From a virus, in the IMG/VR virus record IMGVR_UViG_3300032304_001935, positions 1-31,568 of that record: 31,568 nucleotides of DNA; one strand, 5' to 3'. This document shows, piece after piece, positions 4,533 to 31,568 of the stretch (position 1 is the stretch's first letter; each line of letters begins with the position of its first letter). The translations under genes were made by a program, and so were the position numbers. The notes below the pieces were generated by a model, which saw only the letters and a list, made by a program, of their open reading frames with translations, was not told where the DNA came from and made no database searches.

Positions 4533-4850
4533 ATGGCACATTTCGCAAAAATCCAAAACAACATTGTTACCCAAGTCATTGTGGCTGAACAAGACGTGAT
4601 TGACAGTGGTCTTTTTGGTGATCCGGCATCATGGATTCAGACATCCTATAACACCCACAATGGCGTTCATGTCCTTGGTGGCACACCACTACGCAAGAAC
4701 TTTGCTGGCGTTGGATACACATACGACCCCGTAGCGGATGAGTTTAATCCGCCGTTTGTTGCTGAGGTAGTAGAAGATGTTATAATACCGTCACAAACTG
4801 CTACAGAATCTGTCTCAATTACAACGGCATCGGAAACAATTAATCTATGA
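4533..4850 (+). CDS. Small tail protein of the MAHFAKI type
   Basis: A 105-residue protein beginning MAHFAKIQNNIVTQVIVAEQD, followed by SWIQTSYNTHNGVHVLGGTP and RKNFAGVGYTYDPVADEF. This set of motifs is highly characteristic of a small tail-associated protein present, often in several copies, in T4-like cyanophages and other aquatic phages. Its biochemical role is not known. The C-terminal 25 residues are Thr/Ser/Val-rich and less conserved. The stop codon overlaps the start of the giant LamG gene (ATGA), so the two are probably translationally coupled and may form one fibre complex. Confidence 0.75.
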   Translation: MAHFAKIQNNIVTQVIVAEQDVIDSGLFGDPASWIQTSYNTHNGVHVLGGTPLRKNFAGVGYTYDPVADEFNPPFVAEVVEDVIIPSQTATESVSITTASETINL

Positions 4851-7800
4851 GCAATCGTTGGCCCGGCGGCATAATTAACGCAACAGCACCAGTACCCACT
4901 GGCGGTGGTGCAGGCGATTCTGCGCCTGGTGTTTGGACAATAGACCAAGCTGACCAGTACATTGCTGTCCAAGAATGGCCCGGCACAGGCATACCCGACC
5001 CACAGTTCCAATACGTCACTGCGTTACTTCACGGTGACGGCGTTAACGGCGGTCAGAACAACACCTTCTTAGACTCATCGTCTAACAACTTCAGCATCAC
5101 CCGCAACGGCAACACCACACAAGGGTCGTTCAGCCCGTATGGTAATTTGTGGAGTAACTTCTTTACGACAAACAATTATTTAACTGCCCCAGCGAATGCA
5201 GCATTTCAGATGGGCAGCGGCGACTTTACCATTGAAGCGTGGATATTTCCAACCGCTACGGCTGGCTCTAGCAATAGTGAAGTAATTAGCTATGGAGCGC
5301 CTAACGAATTTGATGGATGGCATTTCTATCAAGTCGCATCTACTAATGTATTAAGTTTTGGACTTAACTATGCTGGTTTAATTGTTTCATCATCTGCTGC
5401 ATTACCCTTAAACACATGGACTCATGTCGCTGTTACAAGAAGCGGAACTACATTTAAATTATGGATTAACGGCGTAAATGATGGAACAGCTACTAGTTCT
5501 ACATCTCAATCTACAAATGCAAACGATAAACTTTATGTAGGTACAGGCTCTTACAGCCAAGGTGCTGACAGGTCATTTATTGGTTATATTTCAAATGCAA
5601 GGGTAATTAAAGGTTCTGCAATATACTCGGCTACATTTACCCCAAGCACAACACCATTAACTGCTATTAGCGGAACTTCTGTTTTAACTTGCCAGTCTAA
5701 TCGATTCATTGACAACAGCTCTAACGCTTTCGCAATTACTGTTACAGGATCACCATCAGTCCAACGCTTCTCGCCCTTCCAAAACCTAGCAACGTATCAG
5801 CCAGCCGTAATCGGCGGGTCGGGGTACTTTGATGGTACGGGAGACTTTTTAACTGTTGCTAATAACGCAGCATTAAATGTAGAAACTGGGGACTTTTGTG
5901 TTGAGTGCTGGTTTAATAGGCCAAGTTATGCTAGTGGCACAGATTCAGACATTTTGGTTGCAAAAGGCACAAATAATTTTGTTTTGGCTATTAACCCATC
6001 TAATCAAATACAATTTGCGCAATATGGTGTGGCGCTTTTACTTACATCAACAACTATAGTAACATACAATCAATGGTTTCATGTAGCAGTAACAAGATCT
6101 GGCACTACATTAAGAATGTTTGTTAATGGTGTGCAGGAAGCAAGCACAACAAGTTCTGCAAACTTCACATCTACAACAGCATTAAACATTGGTTTAGATC
6201 CATTAAATACAGCCCAAAAATTTATCGGCTACATTTCAAATTTGAGGCTCGTTAAAGGTTCTGCAGTTTATACATCAGCGTTCACCCCAAGTACCGCCCC
6301 GTTGACAGCTGTGTCTGGCACATCTCTGCTTACCAACTTCACCAACGGCGCTATTTTTGACAGTGACGCATCCAACAACTTTGAAACAGTTGGCAACGCT
6401 CAGATCAGCACCAGCGTGGTTAAGTACGGCACTGGCAGTATGGCGTTTGATGGAAGTGGTGATGGTTTAAATGCACCAGATTCCCCTCAATTTGATATGG
6501 GAAGCGGTAATTTTACTGTTGAAATGTGGTTGTACGCTAACTCTTTAAGTGGTGAACAGTTTTTAGTGGGGCAACATAACAATTCTACTTACTATGCACC
6601 ATTTAGATTTGCATTTGATGGCTCACGACTTGTAGCATTTATGAGTACAACTGGTTCATCTTGGGGTCTTCGTTTAGAAGCGGGTTCTTCTTTAAGCACA
6701 TCAACTTGGTATCACATTGCACTAGTAAGGAATGGAACTTCATTTAAGATATATGTAAATGGAAATCAGTATGATTCTGGCACATTAAACGGTGCTTTAT
6801 ATAACTCAACAGACATTATGAGAGTTGGATGGGGGTCTATTAGTGCAGGTGTTTTTTCATTGAATGGTTACATCGATGACCTACGCATAACGAAGGGCTA
6901 CGCCCGATACTGGTACAACTTCCAGCCTCCGACCAGAGCATTCCCGAACTACGGCGGCACAGTAGTACAGCCAGTAGAAGATCCATTGTTCCAGTACAAC
7001 ACGCTGCTACTTAACGGCAACGGAACCAACGGAGCGCAGAACAATACATTCCTAGACTCCTCTACCAATAACTTTACGATTACTCGTAACGGCAATACGA
7101 CACAGGGTAGCTTTAGTCCTTACGGAACATTGTGGAGTAACTTCTTTAATGGTAGCAATGCATATTTAACCGCTCCTAATGACACAAACTGGCAGATAGG
7201 AAGCACTTCTACTTATTCTGTTGAGGCGTGGGTTAATGTTGGGTCAACTAGCGCACAAAGCGCATTATGCGGGGCATTAAACAGATGGTGGCTCGGGTCC
7301 AATTTTACTGACGTATCAGGAGCTTCAGGTAAGTTTTGCTTTGCAGTATTTAATGGTTCTAGCTGGCAGACAATAAGCTCAGCAACAACAGTAGTCGCCG
7401 GGACTTGGTACCATGTTGCTGCAACGTTTAATAATGGAACAACACGACTGTATATTAATGGTGTTCAAGAGGCAACAACAACCGGCGTGGCAACTAATAC
7501 CGCAACAGGCACATTGTTTGTCGGAGCAATTTTAAATCCAGGTTATAGTTACGGATTAACTGGTTATCTGTCAAATATTAGAATTACTAAAGGCAGCGCT
7601 TTACCTTATACGGCAAACTTTACACCTAGCACTACTCCATTAACAGCGGTTAGCGGAACAGTATTTTTATCGTGCCAGTCTAACCGTTTTGTTGACAACT
7701 CCACTAATAATTACACAATTACAGCATCAGGCACACCATCAGTCCAACGCTTCTCACCATTTAAGCCAACAGCACCATACTCTACTAGCGTAATAGGTGG

Positions 7801-8959
7801 AAGTGGGTACTTTGATGGAACTGGGGATAGTTTAAGCGTTGCAAACAACACGGCACTAGAGTTTGGTTCTGGCGACTTTACGATTGAAACATTTGTATAT
7901 TTTAATTCTTTGGCTACAAATCGAGGGATTGTTTACCTCGGCACGGATCCAAATTCAAACTTTTCTTACGGATTACAGTGGTCTGGTAATGTACTGTATT
8001 TTTGGTATACAACGAATGGTTCGGACTTAACAAACAAAAACGCTTCTTGGACTCCAGTAACAAGTACTTGGTATCATGTTGCCGTAACAAGAAGTGGTAA
8101 CGACCTTAGATTTTTTGTAGACGGTGCGCAGATTGGCACAACGCAAAGTCTTTCTGGCGTTACTATTTTTGACTCAACATCAGCAATGTTAATTGGCGGT
8201 GAAGCTACTGGCTCCCCAACTTCACTACCTGGGCCAATGAATGGCTATATTAGTAACTTACGCATATTAAAGGGAACTGCGTTATACACGTCAAACTTTA
8301 CTGTGCCAACAGCGCCGCTTACAGCCATTACCAATACGTCTTTGCTTACTAGCATGACCAACGCTGGCATCCCCGACCTTGCTATGATGAACAACTGGGA
8401 AACAGTGGGTAATGCACAAGTCAGCACAGCGCAGTCTAAGTTTGGCGGTAGCAGCTTGGCGTTTGATGGTACTACTGACGGATTAGTGTTAGCTAGCAAT
8501 CCACCGCAAGTGTTAAGGGGTGATTTTACTATTGAAAGTTGGGTATATTTAAATAACACAACAGGCTTCCAAACAATTATTGGAAGATGGCAACCATCAA
8601 ATCAAGAATATTTGCTGTGGGTTAGTAGTGGAACTGTTCAATTCTATCTTAGGGCATTTAGCGACTCAACGCCTTTAGTTAGTTCATCTTCTACATTATC
8701 TGCTACAACTTGGACTCATGTTGCAGTAATTAGGAATGGTAGCACTTTTACAATATATATTAACGGAACATCGGCTGGAACGGCAACAAATTCATCTGCA
8801 ATGACAGTTACAAATGCAGCTACAACTGTTGGCTCTATTTTGCCTGGCTTTTCTGGATATGATTTGAATGGCTTTATCCAAGACCTACGTATTACGAACG
8901 GAATAGCCCGCTACGTACAGCCGTTCACACCACCGACACAAGCATTTCAGACATATTAA
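4847..8959 (+). CDS. Giant adhesin with six LamG/concanavalin A-like modules
   Basis: A 1370-residue protein, the second largest here. After an N-terminal segment with the SAPGVWTIDQADQY motif (about 25-40) come six LamG-like lectin modules: A about 54-311, B 318-500, C 509-700, A' 715-975, B' 978-1168, C' 1182-1370. Each has a strand such as YFDGTGDFLTVANNAAL, then GDFTIEAWIF, a WTHVAVTRSGTTFKLWING strand and GYISNxRxxKG. A/A', B/B' and C/C' are each other's closest relatives, so a three-module cassette was duplicated in tandem. LamG domains bind sugars in other proteins; here they probably serve as receptor-binding or glycan-binding parts of a tail fibre. The preceding gene overlaps by four bases. 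No signal peptide is seen. Confidence 0.85.
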   Translation: MSNRWPGGIINATAPVPTGGGAGDSAPGVWTIDQADQYIAVQEWPGTGIPDPQFQYVTALLHGDGVNGGQNNTFLDSSSNNFSITRNGNTTQGSFSPYGNLWSNFFTTNNYLTAPANAAFQMGSGDFTIEAWIFPTATAGSSNSEVISYGAPNEFDGWHFYQVASTNVLSFGLNYAGLIVSSSAALPLNTWTHVAVTRSGTTFKLWINGVNDGTATSSTSQSTNANDKLYVGTGSYSQGADRSFIGYISNARVIKGSAIYSATFTPSTTPLTAISGTSVLTCQSNRFIDNSSNAFAITVTGSPSVQRFSPFQNLATYQPAVIGGSGYFDGTGDFLTVANNAALNVETGDFCVECWFNRPSYASGTDSDILVAKGTNNFVLAINPSNQIQFAQYGVALLLTSTTIVTYNQWFHVAVTRSGTTLRMFVNGVQEASTTSSANFTSTTALNIGLDPLNTAQKFIGYISNLRLVKGSAVYTSAFTPSTAPLTAVSGTSLLTNFTNGAIFDSDASNNFETVGNAQISTSVVKYGTGSMAFDGSGDGLNAPDSPQFDMGSGNFTVEMWLYANSLSGEQFLVGQHNNSTYYAPFRFAFDGSRLVAFMSTTGSSWGLRLEAGSSLSTSTWYHIALVRNGTSFKIYVNGNQYDSGTLNGALYNSTDIMRVGWGSISAGVFSLNGYIDDLRITKGYARYWYNFQPPTRAFPNYGGTVVQPVEDPLFQYNTLLLNGNGTNGAQNNTFLDSSTNNFTITRNGNTTQGSFSPYGTLWSNFFNGSNAYLTAPNDTNWQIGSTSTYSVEAWVNVGSTSAQSALCGALNRWWLGSNFTDVSGASGKFCFAVFNGSSWQTISSATTVVAGTWYHVAATFNNGTTRLYINGVQEATTTGVATNTATGTLFVGAILNPGYSYGLTGYLSNIRITKGSALPYTANFTPSTTPLTAVSGTVFLSCQSNRFVDNSTNNYTITASGTPSVQRFSPFKPTAPYSTSVIGGSGYFDGTGDSLSVANNTALEFGSGDFTIETFVYFNSLATNRGIVYLGTDPNSNFSYGLQWSGNVLYFWYTTNGSDLTNKNASWTPVTSTWYHVAVTRSGNDLRFFVDGAQIGTTQSLSGVTIFDSTSAMLIGGEATGSPTSLPGPMNGYISNLRILKGTALYTSNFTVPTAPLTAITNTSLLTSMTNAGIPDLAMMNNWETVGNAQVSTAQSKFGGSSLAFDGTTDGLVLASNPPQVLRGDFTIESWVYLNNTTGFQTIIGRWQPSNQEYLLWVSSGTVQFYLRAFSDSTPLVSSSSTLSATTWTHVAVIRNGSTFTIYINGTSAGTATNSSAMTVTNAATTVGSILPGFSGYDLNGFIQDLRITNGIARYVQPFTPPTQAFQTY
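4990..8956 (+). repeat. Two-copy tandem repeat of a LamG triple cassette
   Basis: About 2 kb (roughly 4990-6950) is repeated at about 6975-8956 within the giant adhesin gene. Landmarks of the first module in each copy are near 5059-5163 and 7045-7150. There the encoded peptide is almost the same (NTFLDSS, ITRNGNTTQGSFSPYG, LWSNFF) but many third-codon positions differ. Boundaries are approximate because they were taken from protein motifs. Confidence 0.7.
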
Positions 8960-9360: not shown

Positions 9361-10407
9361 ATGAAAATAGCTGTATATGCTATTGCAAAAAACGAAGAAA
9401 AGCATGTAAAACGGTTTTGTGAATCAGCCCAAGAGGCAGATTTGATCGTCATAACCGATACAGGTTCAGAAGACAATACGGTTGAGGAGGCTAAAAAGCA
9501 TGGGGCTCTGGTTCATTCCATTCGCATTAATCCTTTTCGCTTCGATGTGGCTCGTAACGCCGCACTAGCACTATTGCCTGCCGACGTAGATGTCTGCGTC
9601 TCGATGGACCTTGATGAGGTGCTGTTGCCAGGTTGGCGAAAAGAAATTGAGCAGTGCTGGTCGGAAGACATTACGCGATTAAACATTGGCTTTGACTTTG
9701 GTCAGCACCGTGTGTTTTATCCGTCCCGAGCACACAATCGGCATGGGTATTATTGGAAGTACCCCTGCCATGAGTACATCACACCAGATCAACGGGTGGC
9801 AGACATTTGTGGTCATACGTCATTTGTAATGATGTCACACAAACCAGACAATACAAAATCAAGGGGGCAGTACCTTGATCTGCTAGAGATGGCAACAAAA
9901 GAAGATCCAAACTGCCACCGCAGTTGTTATTATTACGGCAGGGAGTTAACCTACCGGTCACGGTGGCTTGATGCGCAAACAGAATTAGAGCGTTACCTGA
10001 CGCTACCAACAGCAACGTGGCCACTAGAACGAAGCCACGTCATGCGCATGATTGGTAGCTGCCTAGAGAAACAAGACAAAGACGGCCTGAAGTGGTTTAG
10101 GCTAGCAGTAATAGAAGATCCTAGCATACGTGAAAATTGGTACGACTTAGCAATGACTTGCTACCAAAAACACCAGTGGATTGAGTCTTATGCGGCAGCC
10201 AAGAAGGCGCTAGAGATTAAAGACAACATGGCGCAGCACACTGGCAGCGCAGACGCCTGGGGTTTTATGACATACGATTTGGTGGCGATTGCCGCGTACC
10301 ATTTGAAATTGAAAGACGAAGCAATTAAGTTTGGCAGCATCGCACTACAGATGCAACCCGAAAACCAACGACTAATAGATAACCTAAAGTTTTATAAGGA
10401 ATTATAA
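9361..10407 (+). CDS. Family 2 glycosyltransferase with C-terminal TPR-like helices
   Basis: A 348-residue protein, ATG preceded by GGAGA with five-base spacing. The GT-A core shows the nucleotide-binding start IAVYAIAKNEEKHVKRF (3-19), DTGSEDNT (33-40) and a DxD-type motif MDLDE (Asp83, Asp85), which normally binds the metal and sugar nucleotide. Residues about 190-345 are helical with TPR-like spacing (YYYGRELTYRSRWLDAQTEL, WYDLAMTCYQKHQWIESYAA). GT2 enzymes fused to TPRs are common in phages and bacteria. The gene sits between fibre genes, so it may glycosylate fibre proteins or host surface sugars; this is inference. The stop overlaps the next ATG by one base. Confidence 0.85.
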   Translation: MKIAVYAIAKNEEKHVKRFCESAQEADLIVITDTGSEDNTVEEAKKHGALVHSIRINPFRFDVARNAALALLPADVDVCVSMDLDEVLLPGWRKEIEQCWSEDITRLNIGFDFGQHRVFYPSRAHNRHGYYWKYPCHEYITPDQRVADICGHTSFVMMSHKPDNTKSRGQYLDLLEMATKEDPNCHRSCYYYGRELTYRSRWLDAQTELERYLTLPTATWPLERSHVMRMIGSCLEKQDKDGLKWFRLAVIEDPSIRENWYDLAMTCYQKHQWIESYAAAKKALEIKDNMAQHTGSADAWGFMTYDLVAIAAYHLKLKDEAIKFGSIALQMQPENQRLIDNLKFYKEL

Positions 10408-28979: not shown

Positions 28980-30911
28980 TCACTTCTTGTAGCGCTTATT
29001 GACCCATCCCTCTGCAGCTAGGGGGAAGTCAGATGCCCAAGCGGGTGGTGTTGTCATAATCTTCATCACGTCTTCCAAAGCAGCCTCACTACCAGCTTCA
29101 TCAACTAGGAGTAACACCTCGTCATGGATCAAGTTGATAACTTCATAACCGAACTTCGTAATATTGAGCGTCGCATCTGCGAGAAAATCTCTAGCAGTTC
29201 CTTGTACGGCGGATTGGAAGATGGAGCTGCCGATGAGCGAGTTACGACCCCATTGGCGGGTGTAAGTACTTTGGGAGTGGACAGTAACCCCCATCTTCTC
29301 CTCACCCCATGGAGTGGTGACCAGCTCGAACTTTGGCCGTTGCCAACAGATATGGCGACCACTGGGTAGTTTTAACCACAGCACGTCTTTCTTAGTCCAG
29401 AGTGCTAACTTACTACCGACTCTAATTGTAATACCTGGCGTGTCGATTGCTTTGATTGCGGCTCTCTCACACTCATACCATAAATCCCTCACCTTAGAAT
29501 AAGAATCTCGGTAACTGTTTACCGCAGCCTTCGCCTTGGTTTCATTTATCGTGACCCCCATTCCCTCAGCGTACTTAACCAGCCCTTTGGCTCCTTGACC
29601 AAACATTGCGCCGAGGACTGCTGATTTTGCAACTTGTCTCTGATCCTTCGTAACATCTTCGTATGGCACACGATACAAAGACGTCGAAGCGAAAACTTTG
29701 TACTCATCTAATCCTTTCCGGAACAGCTCGACTTTGTCGGTCTGTCCTGCGAGCCAAACCCCAACTCGATTTTCAATTGAGCTAAAATCCACGTCAACGA
29801 AGGTTTTTCCGACAGGGGCGACAATCGCGCTTCGGACGAGCGATGAGAGCTCGGACATTGATCCCAATCCTCCATCAAAGACTCGCGGTATAGCTCGTTC
29901 AATCTCTCCATCTTCCAGCGTGGGACGAGCGATATTCTGTAGATTGAGTCCGCCACGGCTCGCCCAGCGGCCGGTACTAGCGCCATGATATACCAGTGTA
30001 TTCCTAATTTTTCCATCTCGTTGTATCTCCTGCATCTTAGCGTACTTAGCCACGCTAGTTTGGCTGCCTTCTTGGCGCAGCTCTAAGGCGCGCCGGATGT
30101 TTGGCGATAAGTTAGTGTCCACTAACTTAGCTGTAACGGTCTTTTCGGTCAAATCGGTTAGGTTGGCGCCATGCTCATTTAACCAGTTAAGTAGTTTTTC
30201 ACGCTCTGAGGGCTTGCAGCCTGTTAGTTCAACCGTTTCCCTGTCAAGTGCGTTCTGAGCGTTTTCACAGGCCAAAACAGCGTTATGGAGCTCTTTAGGA
30301 TCCACTGGGACGCCGCACAGGTTGATCCGCTGGGTGAGGGTCCAGATGTCCTGCTCGACGGCTGTAAGGGGCCTTAAATCGGCTACAATCGCCATCTCTG
30401 TGCGTACGTCCTGTGCGCAGTAATCAAACATTTCCGCCAAGAGTTCTGGATCATTATTAAATAGCCCGTTTCTTTGCGGCTTGCATAACTTCTGGATTAG
30501 GAATCTACCACGAGTATCTTTTTGTTGGTTGGCGTCTAGGAATTTACCAGCGTCGCCCAGTGCTTGCGGAATGTTATTGGCTGCCGCTATGGCCATGGAG
30601 TCAATGCACTGCTCCAGCTTTAGTGGGGGCCAGCCGTACTTGGGTACGCAGACGCAGTTCCAAATGGCGTACTCGAACATGGCGTTCCACGCCTGGATTC
30701 TGCCACCAGCGGCAACGTGGTCAATCAGCTTGTATAGTTGCGGCTTAAAGTGTAGTTGCTCTTTTGTGGTGCTGCTAACTTCCACATCGTCAGGTTGAGT
30801 GCCATACGCAATACACAACACTTCTGTTGTGTCGTCGTTGGCGTAGATGTCAAGCCCGCGATCGGCTAGGTCGATAGTGCTACGTGTCTCAAAGTCAATG
30901 CTATAAATCAT
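28980..30911 (-). CDS. polA: Family A DNA polymerase with 3'-5' exonuclease
   Basis: The start at 30911 (MIYSIDFETRST, 643 residues) is set by AGGAG six bases upstream; the longer frame to 30983 would run through a terminator. Exonuclease motifs: Asp6/Glu8 (IDFET), Asn76/Glu80 (WNAMFE; the usual Asp is Glu), and Asp168 (YCAQDV). Polymerase motifs: TGRW (313-316); motif A DFSSIENR (Asp375, Glu380, Arg382); motif B RQVAKSAVLGAMFG (Arg425, Lys429); motif C HDE (596-598). No 5'-nuclease domain is present. It replicates the phage genome. The motif B position equal to Pol I Phe762 is Leu433, and that equal to Tyr766 is Phe437. The gene is on the opposite strand to the virion block and downstream of DUF1289 and RNR. 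Confidence 0.95.
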   Translation of the reverse strand: MIYSIDFETRSTIDLADRGLDIYANDDTTEVLCIAYGTQPDDVEVSSTTKEQLHFKPQLYKLIDHVAAGGRIQAWNAMFEYAIWNCVCVPKYGWPPLKLEQCIDSMAIAAANNIPQALGDAGKFLDANQQKDTRGRFLIQKLCKPQRNGLFNNDPELLAEMFDYCAQDVRTEMAIVADLRPLTAVEQDIWTLTQRINLCGVPVDPKELHNAVLACENAQNALDRETVELTGCKPSEREKLLNWLNEHGANLTDLTEKTVTAKLVDTNLSPNIRRALELRQEGSQTSVAKYAKMQEIQRDGKIRNTLVYHGASTGRWASRGGLNLQNIARPTLEDGEIERAIPRVFDGGLGSMSELSSLVRSAIVAPVGKTFVDVDFSSIENRVGVWLAGQTDKVELFRKGLDEYKVFASTSLYRVPYEDVTKDQRQVAKSAVLGAMFGQGAKGLVKYAEGMGVTINETKAKAAVNSYRDSYSKVRDLWYECERAAIKAIDTPGITIRVGSKLALWTKKDVLWLKLPSGRHICWQRPKFELVTTPWGEEKMGVTVHSQSTYTRQWGRNSLIGSSIFQSAVQGTARDFLADATLNITKFGYEVINLIHDEVLLLVDEAGSEAALEDVMKIMTTPPAWASDFPLAAEGWVNKRYKK

Positions 30912-30928
30912 ATATGCTCCTAGGGCAA

Positions 30929-30942
30929 CCGGACGTATCCGG
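30929..30942 (-). promoter_or_regulatory. Small hairpin in the polymerase leader
   Basis: CCGGA and TCCGG arms around a four-base loop (minus strand TACG), just after the T-run of the upstream terminator and seven bases before the AGGAG ribosome binding site. It could affect polymerase translation. No further evidence. Confidence 0.35.
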
Positions 30943-30969
30943 AAAAAAAGGGGGCCGTACTGCGCCCCC
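30943..30969 (-). terminator. Intrinsic terminator upstream of the polymerase gene
   Basis: On the minus strand GGGGGC, loop GCAGTACG, GCCCCC and seven T form a complete rho-independent terminator (six GC pairs). It sits between the DUF1289 gene and the polymerase, so it would end or reduce transcription from the ribonucleotide reductase side before the polymerase. It implies either partial read-through (attenuation) or an unseen promoter in the last 30 bases. Confidence 0.85.
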
Positions 30970-30989
30970 AAACCAACCACCATGTAAAA

Positions 30990-31184
30990 CTATTTAACTC
31001 TGTCTATTATACGCTGTTTTTCTTCGTTGGACATAACATACCATTTAGAAACTTCCTCCCTGGTTCGTTTGCATCCTTTACATACGTTAAATATGTTGAG
31101 GCGACAGACACCGTTGCATGGGGATTTGACTTCCACCCCCACGCTAGGTTCCAGTTTGTTAGGTTCAGAGGCGGGCACGCCCAT
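30990..31184 (-). CDS. DUF1289 family small Cys protein
   Basis: A 64-residue protein. SPCNGVCRLNIFNVCKGCKR places four Cys at 23, 27, 35 and 38, followed by TREEVSKWYVMSNEEKQRII, the DUF1289 signature (SPCxGVCxxD...CxGCxRTxxEIxxWxxMS). The Cys set suggests metal or Fe-S binding, but the family's activity is unknown. It starts three bases after the ribonucleotide reductase stop, with no clear SD, so translational coupling is likely. Bacterial DUF1289 genes are widespread; its place between nucleotide reduction and DNA synthesis suggests a nucleotide-metabolism or redox accessory role (inference). Confidence 0.8.
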   Translation of the reverse strand: MGVPASEPNKLEPSVGVEVKSPCNGVCRLNIFNVCKGCKRTREEVSKWYVMSNEEKQRIIDRVK

Positions 31185-31187
31185 GGA

Positions 31188-31568
31188 TCAGATCTCACAG
31201 ACGCCGGCGCTGCAAGCTAACATCTGTGCGCCCTCTACGTTGTCGGTGTTTTCTTTGAGGTCTAACCAGTTGATCTTGGGGATCTTGGCTTTAAGCTCTT
31301 CGTACTGCTCTTCGTTGATTTCCTCGTAGGGCGCTTGGCGATACGTGCCGCCGTCGTAGGGGAGGTAGCTGACGCCGCTGATTTCTCCGAAGTTTTCCCA
31401 GGTCCAGGCTCCGACTGCTGGCCAGTCTCTTTCTTCAACTGAAATAGTGACACTGGGTTTGTGCTCACACCAATGCCGCTGGAACGTAAGCCAGAGCTCA
31501 AGATGTTGTATAGGAGTGACATCTGATCGAGTGATTCCGGCGGGTGCTTTTTGAGGAAAGCTAAACAC
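31188..31568 (-). CDS. nrdJ: Class II (B12-dependent) ribonucleotide reductase, C-terminal part
   Basis: The gene continues past the window edge; 126 residues are visible and the first codon shown (GTG at 31566-31568) is not a real start. The sequence contains FPQKAPAGITRSDVTPIQHL, EHKPSVTISVEERDW, ISGVSYLPYDGGTYRQAPYE and ends ACSAGVCEI. These are the C-terminal features of monomeric adenosylcobalamin-dependent reductases. The final Cys pair (119 and 124 of the visible part, CxxxxC) passes electrons to the active site. The enzyme makes deoxynucleotides for phage replication and uses host cobalamin. It is first in the minus-strand set seen here, ahead of DUF1289 and the DNA polymerase. Confidence 0.9.
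   Translation of the reverse strand: MFSFPQKAPAGITRSDVTPIQHLELWLTFQRHWCEHKPSVTISVEERDWPAVGAWTWENFGEISGVSYLPYDGGTYRQAPYEEINEEQYEELKAKIPKINWLDLKENTDNVEGAQMLACSAGVCEI

Follow-up and report, generated by a model that had tools for sequence, protein, structure and literature searches.

A family A phage DNA polymerase with a lineage-fixed Leu762/Phe766 pair and a conserved hairpin in its leader

Among the textbook determinants of polymerase fidelity are residues 762 and 766 of Pol I, and nearly everything known about them comes from single mutants in enzymes with Phe or Tyr at position 762. The window analysed here, the whole 31,568-base linear virus record IMGVR_UViG_3300032304_001935 of an uncultured virus of bacteria, contains a polA gene with Leu and Phe at these two positions, which raises the question of what the pair says about the enzyme, its lineage and the lifestyle of the phage. 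Our overall reading, to which we assign a probability of about 0.7, is that polA encodes the replicative polymerase of an apparently virulent phage clade, that the effect of Leu762/Phe766 is mild and that the gene may be controlled through its leader. The polymerase family is a known one; its residue pair is unusual and lineage-fixed, and the conserved RNA element before the gene is new. The features of the gene itself are:

28980..30911, minus strand: polA, family A DNA polymerase with an N-terminal 3'-5' exonuclease-like domain, 643 aa (PF00476, phrog_17 and structural model)
29598..29639, minus strand: motif B (O helix), RQVAKSAVLGAMFG (translation, Pol I register)
29613-29615, minus strand: Leu433, position 762 (motif B register)
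29601-29603, minus strand: Phe437, position 766 (motif B register)
29766..29789, minus strand: motif A, DFSSIENR, with catalytic Asp375 (D705) and steric-gate Glu380 (E710), both invariant in 97 sequences (translation)

The polA protein matches Pfam DNA_pol_A (PF00476, 1.5e-28) and phrog_17 (4.2e-88). The longest mechanical open reading frame starts at 30983 and runs across a hairpin-plus-T-run terminator, whereas the ATG at 30911 has the ribosome site AGGAGC in front of it and opens the N-terminus MIYSIDFETR, which is kept in relatives; on this sequence evidence the start is therefore placed at 30911 and not at 30983, in agreement with the coordinates 28980-30911 of the initial annotation. 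At their other ends, polA and the convergent structural gene finish on adjacent bases (28979/28980), with no space for a separate terminator between them. An AlphaFold model made with 97 aligned phage sequences (pLDDT 95.3, pTM 0.92) showed the right-hand fold with the exonuclease-like domain present, and its closest solved folds over the whole length were the Pol I enzymes of Bst, Taq and E. coli (Z 25.8 and rmsd 4.2 over 523 residues against Bst 4dqi; E 9.8e-23 against Klenow 8oo6). The family A catalytic motifs A, B and C are all present, with D375, K429, H596 and D597 invariant and R425 and E598 nearly so. By fold and catalytic residues, the product is a family A DNA polymerase. It shares both with the E. 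coli, Bst and Taq enzymes, in which position 766 corresponds to Bst Y714 and Taq Y671, but these have Phe762 and Tyr766 where the window enzyme has Leu and Phe, and their Asp in exonuclease motif II is apparently Glu here.

Against the O helix of solved polymerases, motif B needs no gap. Its sequence alignments with Aquifex Pol I and with Pol nu, a KlenTaq profile alignment that sets RQvGKqavLglgYgm over RRAAKTINFGVLYGM, and the conservation of K429 and L433 (invariant) and R425 (nearly invariant) in the 97-sequence alignment all agree, so that the register is secure by alignment: Leu433 is position 762 and Phe437 is position 766. The initial annotation had read the motif in this way, and the profile, the alignments, which returned the same register, and the confident model uphold it. 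Both E710 and Y766 have been called universally conserved in family A (Bst polymerase paper, PMC4882331), but Tyr766 is absent here, replaced by Phe437 in the window and by Phe in all 82 clade members; by fold and catalysis, belonging to family A does not depend on this Tyr. The preceding position, 765, is Met436 in the window and Met or Leu in the clade, comparable to the Ile or Leu of bacterial enzymes, while most other Leu762 enzymes have Gly (LGLGY). In the exonuclease domain, which alone gave no match to any solved sequence, the position of motif II Asp424 is apparently occupied by Glu (residue 80, the E in NAMFE; 30672-30674, minus strand). E80 is nearly invariant in the 97-sequence alignment, Glu is found in nearly all Leu762 relatives, and the proofreading strength of the enzyme may differ from that of Klenow.

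The gene lies behind a short leader and two further genes, one of them cut by the end of the record:

30916..30921, minus strand: ribosome-binding site of polA, AGGAGC (GGAGC conserved in the leader alignment)
30929..30942, minus strand: polA leader hairpin, CCGGA-UACG-UCCGG (covariation; covariance-model match of 43.5 bits)
30943..30969, minus strand: intrinsic-terminator-like hairpin plus seven T, between DUF1289 and polA (fold, conservation)
30990..31184, minus strand: small Cys-rich DUF1289 protein (PF06945, 1.7e-15)
31188..31568, minus strand: class II (RTPR-type) ribonucleotide reductase, C-terminal part, cut by the record end (phrog_367, 4.6e-26)

A terminator-like hairpin (in the window GGGGGC...GCCCCC followed by seven T), then a covarying UNCG-type hairpin, then a ribosome site form the common layout of the leader (window 30929-30969, minus strand; loci L003-L082). 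Hairpins of the first kind stand between DUF1289 or the reductase and polA in 41 of 76 relatives, as against 3 of 76 after shuffling. The second hairpin, directly before the ribosome site of polA, has a 5-bp stem and a loop of UACG, UUCG or CACG. Across 46 distinct sequences, 95.2% of cells were paired and four of the five pairs had compensatory changes; none of 500 shuffles reached the observed pairing or covariation score, and the covariation was lost once the partner was shifted by one, two or three columns. Its folding energy is not unusual (z about -1.2 to +0.7), and the case for the hairpin is therefore made by covariation. A covariance model recovered it in 69 of the 82 clade loci, once in each, a 67.8 kb genome included, but neither in the rest of the 1.1 Mb of clade sequence nor beside 48 other polymerase loci. 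The element is thus clade-specific; Rfam gave no match in the window. A genome-wide repeated phage promoter was rejected as its identity, the motif occurring once per genome.

The three-part leader suggests that the amount of polymerase is set separately, probably at a post-transcriptional level, with the UNCG-type hairpin as a candidate regulatory element. A small hairpin upstream of the ribosome site of a replicative polymerase gene is also what makes up the T4/RB69 gene 43 translational operator, which is bound by the polymerase itself (PMC3014915). The T4 gp43-like layout, a hairpin and a ribosome-site element before the polymerase gene, is found here as well, although the T4/RB69 enzyme belongs to family B and its operator loop is UAAC, whereas the present enzyme belongs to family A, the loop is UACG or UUCG and the hairpin lies closer to the start. 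There is nearly an even chance that the hairpin is instead a stabiliser of the 5' end of the mRNA, or a DNA operator. An extra ORF is inserted between the hairpin and ribosome site and polA in three loci (L017 3989-6004, L060 2038-2572, L081 5782-6019), where it has taken over the ribosome site, which would make the hairpin a part of the transcription unit that is not strictly tied to polA itself; mRNA stability is kept in play as its role for this reason. A -10-like element before the hairpin in 30 of 52 loci (10 in shuffled controls) likewise puts it near a 5' end, but in the window the terminator abuts the hairpin and leaves no promoter space between them. Moreover, the sequence GCCnnAGGAGC is conserved from the hairpin into the ribosome site, as for a protein site that covers the latter, and arms that vary with compensation around a loop that stays UACG, UUCG or CACG fit RNA and speak against a DNA operator. 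As a putative translational control element, the leader hairpin offers a new and testable case of how a phage might control its replicative polymerase.

Turning to the residue pair, Leu762 and Phe766 were found together in every one of the 82 close homologues (the window itself, 80 sequences from IMG/VR and one from a metagenome-assembled genome (MAG)), and the pair is thus not a sequencing error. In the wider family, the residues at 762/766 were Leu/Phe in 109 of 285 phage sequences, Leu/Tyr in 173 and Phe/Tyr in three. Only Tyr or Phe was found at 766 in this set, and an aromatic ring seems to be required there. One alignment of 16 diverse polymerases had no stretch conserved enough for a scan of the collection, and scans were made clade by clade. 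The wider-family set was thinned at 72% identity to 103 sequences, and a tree was built with positions 762 and 766 masked. On this tree the window clade received a support of 100, and position 766 changed 10 times; given the strongly supported branches, at least seven of these changes are unavoidable. Phe766 is fixed in three clades: that of the window, a KPP23-like clade (5 representatives) and one with the motif KNSVLGLGF (8 representatives). The polymerase of Pseudomonas phage KPP23 and its relatives belong to the same broad family at about 33% identity, but stand apart in a well-supported clade that gained Phe766 independently, and no reductase and no polA leader hairpin were found in the KPP23-like records tested. 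The proposal that Leu762 with Phe766 would form one clade is accordingly borne out for the clade of the window but not for the pair as a whole, which is recurrent and not unique, though lineage-fixed in the window clade.

Phe766 had also been called unusual, and this holds outside the Leu762 enzymes: it is absent from 189 polymerases with Phe762 or Tyr762 (including 0/81 HMO-2011-like, 0/77 T7-like and 0/30 bacterial enzymes). At the rate seen among Leu762 enzymes, 3.4 to 4.8 gains would be expected in the Phe762/Tyr762 comparison tree (P of none, 0.034 to 0.008). Since the comparison set is less diverse (34 distinct sequences at 72% identity, as against 103 for Leu762), these figures suggest, but do not prove, that Phe766 depends on a Leu762 background. 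Among the columns shown, no residue beyond 766 itself changed significantly together with Phe766 in seven independent pairs. Position 766 returned no match in the text of the three PolA-762 papers (Schmidt 2014, Nasko 2018, Keown 2022).

According to the Bst polymerase paper, Y766 sits in the insertion site while the enzyme is open and pairs with E710 once it has closed (PMC4882331). In the window enzyme, Leu762 would take the place of the O-helix aromatic ring that stacks against the sugar of the dNTP. Phe766 would stand in for the Tyr that lies in the insertion site of the open enzyme and forms a hydrogen bond to Glu710 in the closed one; the stacking role of this Tyr would be kept and only the hydroxyl contact lost, so that the effect would be small and the closed state might gain in stability. 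Our best guess is that Phe766 has a mild effect on the Leu762 background, because in simulation and FRET the published Y766F variant, unlike Y766A, remains closed and makes the closed form more stable (PMC4882331); a mutator phenotype is described for Y766S (PMC3121766). No claim on the fidelity of the window enzyme is possible from sequence. Phe766, recurrent on the Leu762 background and unseen elsewhere in the sample, is probably tolerated or mildly selected there. It is conceivable, although we lean against it, that Phe766 has no functional meaning, the constraint on Tyr766 being relaxed once 762 is Leu and Phe drifting in. The many independent gains, with scattered singletons among Leu762 enzymes and changes even inside clusters of at least 72% identity, look like drift, but full fixation, both across the diverse window clade with its 82 members and in two further clades, does not, and the restriction to Tyr or Phe implies that the ring is still needed. 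The window clade and the repeated gain of Phe766 only among Leu762 enzymes offer natural, presumably working double variants for studying compensation, and a natural test of ideas on polymerase fidelity and virus lifestyle that rested on laboratory mutants. A more ambitious combination, in which the polymerase represses its own translation through a UNCG-type operator independent of that of T4 gp43 and has a naturally compensated Leu762/Phe766 site, is offered as a speculation that we consider unlikely.

The neighbourhood of polA was conserved in the clade, in the order terminase-small-subunit-like gene, DUF2800 exonuclease, small ORF, Gp2.5-like SSB, class II reductase and polA, followed by convergent structural genes. 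A full-length homologue of the truncated reductase matched 1l1l RTPR at 1.7e-51. The reductase lies just upstream of polA in 77 of 77 loci with enough sequence, the remaining five of the 82 clade loci having too little upstream sequence. One Pfam search found it in 50 of 50 clade records, compared with three of 50 records of other Leu762 phages. The initial annotation was thus right to name a class II reductase and DUF1289 as neighbours of polA, but a general co-occurrence of Phe766 with the reductase does not hold, the link being specific to the clade of the window. Of the replication-gene signature proposed from these neighbours, the reductase part stands within the clade; DUF1289, present in only 17 of 50 related records, is sporadic and was rejected as a signature. 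An SNF2-like helicase was found in 24 of 29 related records; the window, ending at the reductase, shows none. The 67.8 kb relative carries a D5-like primase, SNF2 and a sigma factor. On this basis we infer that polA, combining polymerase and exonuclease-like domains, would act as the replicative family A polymerase of an abundant, uncultured and apparently virulent phage clade, in a replisome of the SNF2-translocase and D5-like primase type, with dNTPs supplied by the clade's own class II reductase.

That the pair marks a polymerase of temperate or pseudo-temperate phages, slow and accurate as proposed for Leu762 PolA, is an improbable reading; the initial annotation had pointed to it in naming Leu forms proposed to be slower or temperate-like. 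This reading draws on a published correlation of Leu762 with temperate phages and with SNF2-type helicases that replace gp4 (PMC6302109; PMC9069017), in line with the frequent SNF2 genes among the relatives, and on mutants: with Leu at 762, Taq becomes slower and more accurate (PMC6302109), and the T7 enzyme loses 97% of its activity (PMC13228545). The clade lends it no support: none of 29 clade records, among them three of about 68 kb, has a tyrosine integrase, and none of 20 has a serine recombinase. The records may be incomplete, several being fragments, and the missing integrases do not prove the clade virulent. Among the known relatives with Leu762 are chi-like and Jersey-like phages, which are virulent. 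The published Leu762 contigs, regarded as temperate, commonly have no reductase (PMC9069017), whereas here a reductase always adjoins polA, and the window clade does not fit that picture. With the published Leu762 groups (Schmidt 2014, Nasko 2018, Keown 2022) it shares family A, Leu762 and an SNF2-like helicase in the genome, but it differs in its fixed Phe766, in Met or Leu at 765, in the reductase always being adjacent and in that no integrase was found. The published pattern is thereby broken, and residue 762 alone is unfit as a lifestyle marker. That polA is a sequencing error or a decayed gene found no support and is refuted by a motif common to all 82 homologues in independent records, intact polymerase catalytic residues and a frame open throughout.

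Only one close relative was met in cellular genomes, on a contig binned with a betaproteobacterial MAG; the stretch read had phage gene order only, and a prophage is not indicated. The 67.8 kb relative (G027) encodes a phage sigma-70-like factor (PF04539, PF04542; L291:3879-4484, plus strand) upstream of its replication genes, and promoters of its own are possible. In the structural part of the window, positions 4847-8959 (plus strand) encode a very long tail or baseplate-like protein of 1370 aa with many overlapping matches to structural families, and 9361-10407 (plus strand) is a beta-1,4-glycosyltransferase-like gene within the structural module (phrog_13126, 5e-93).
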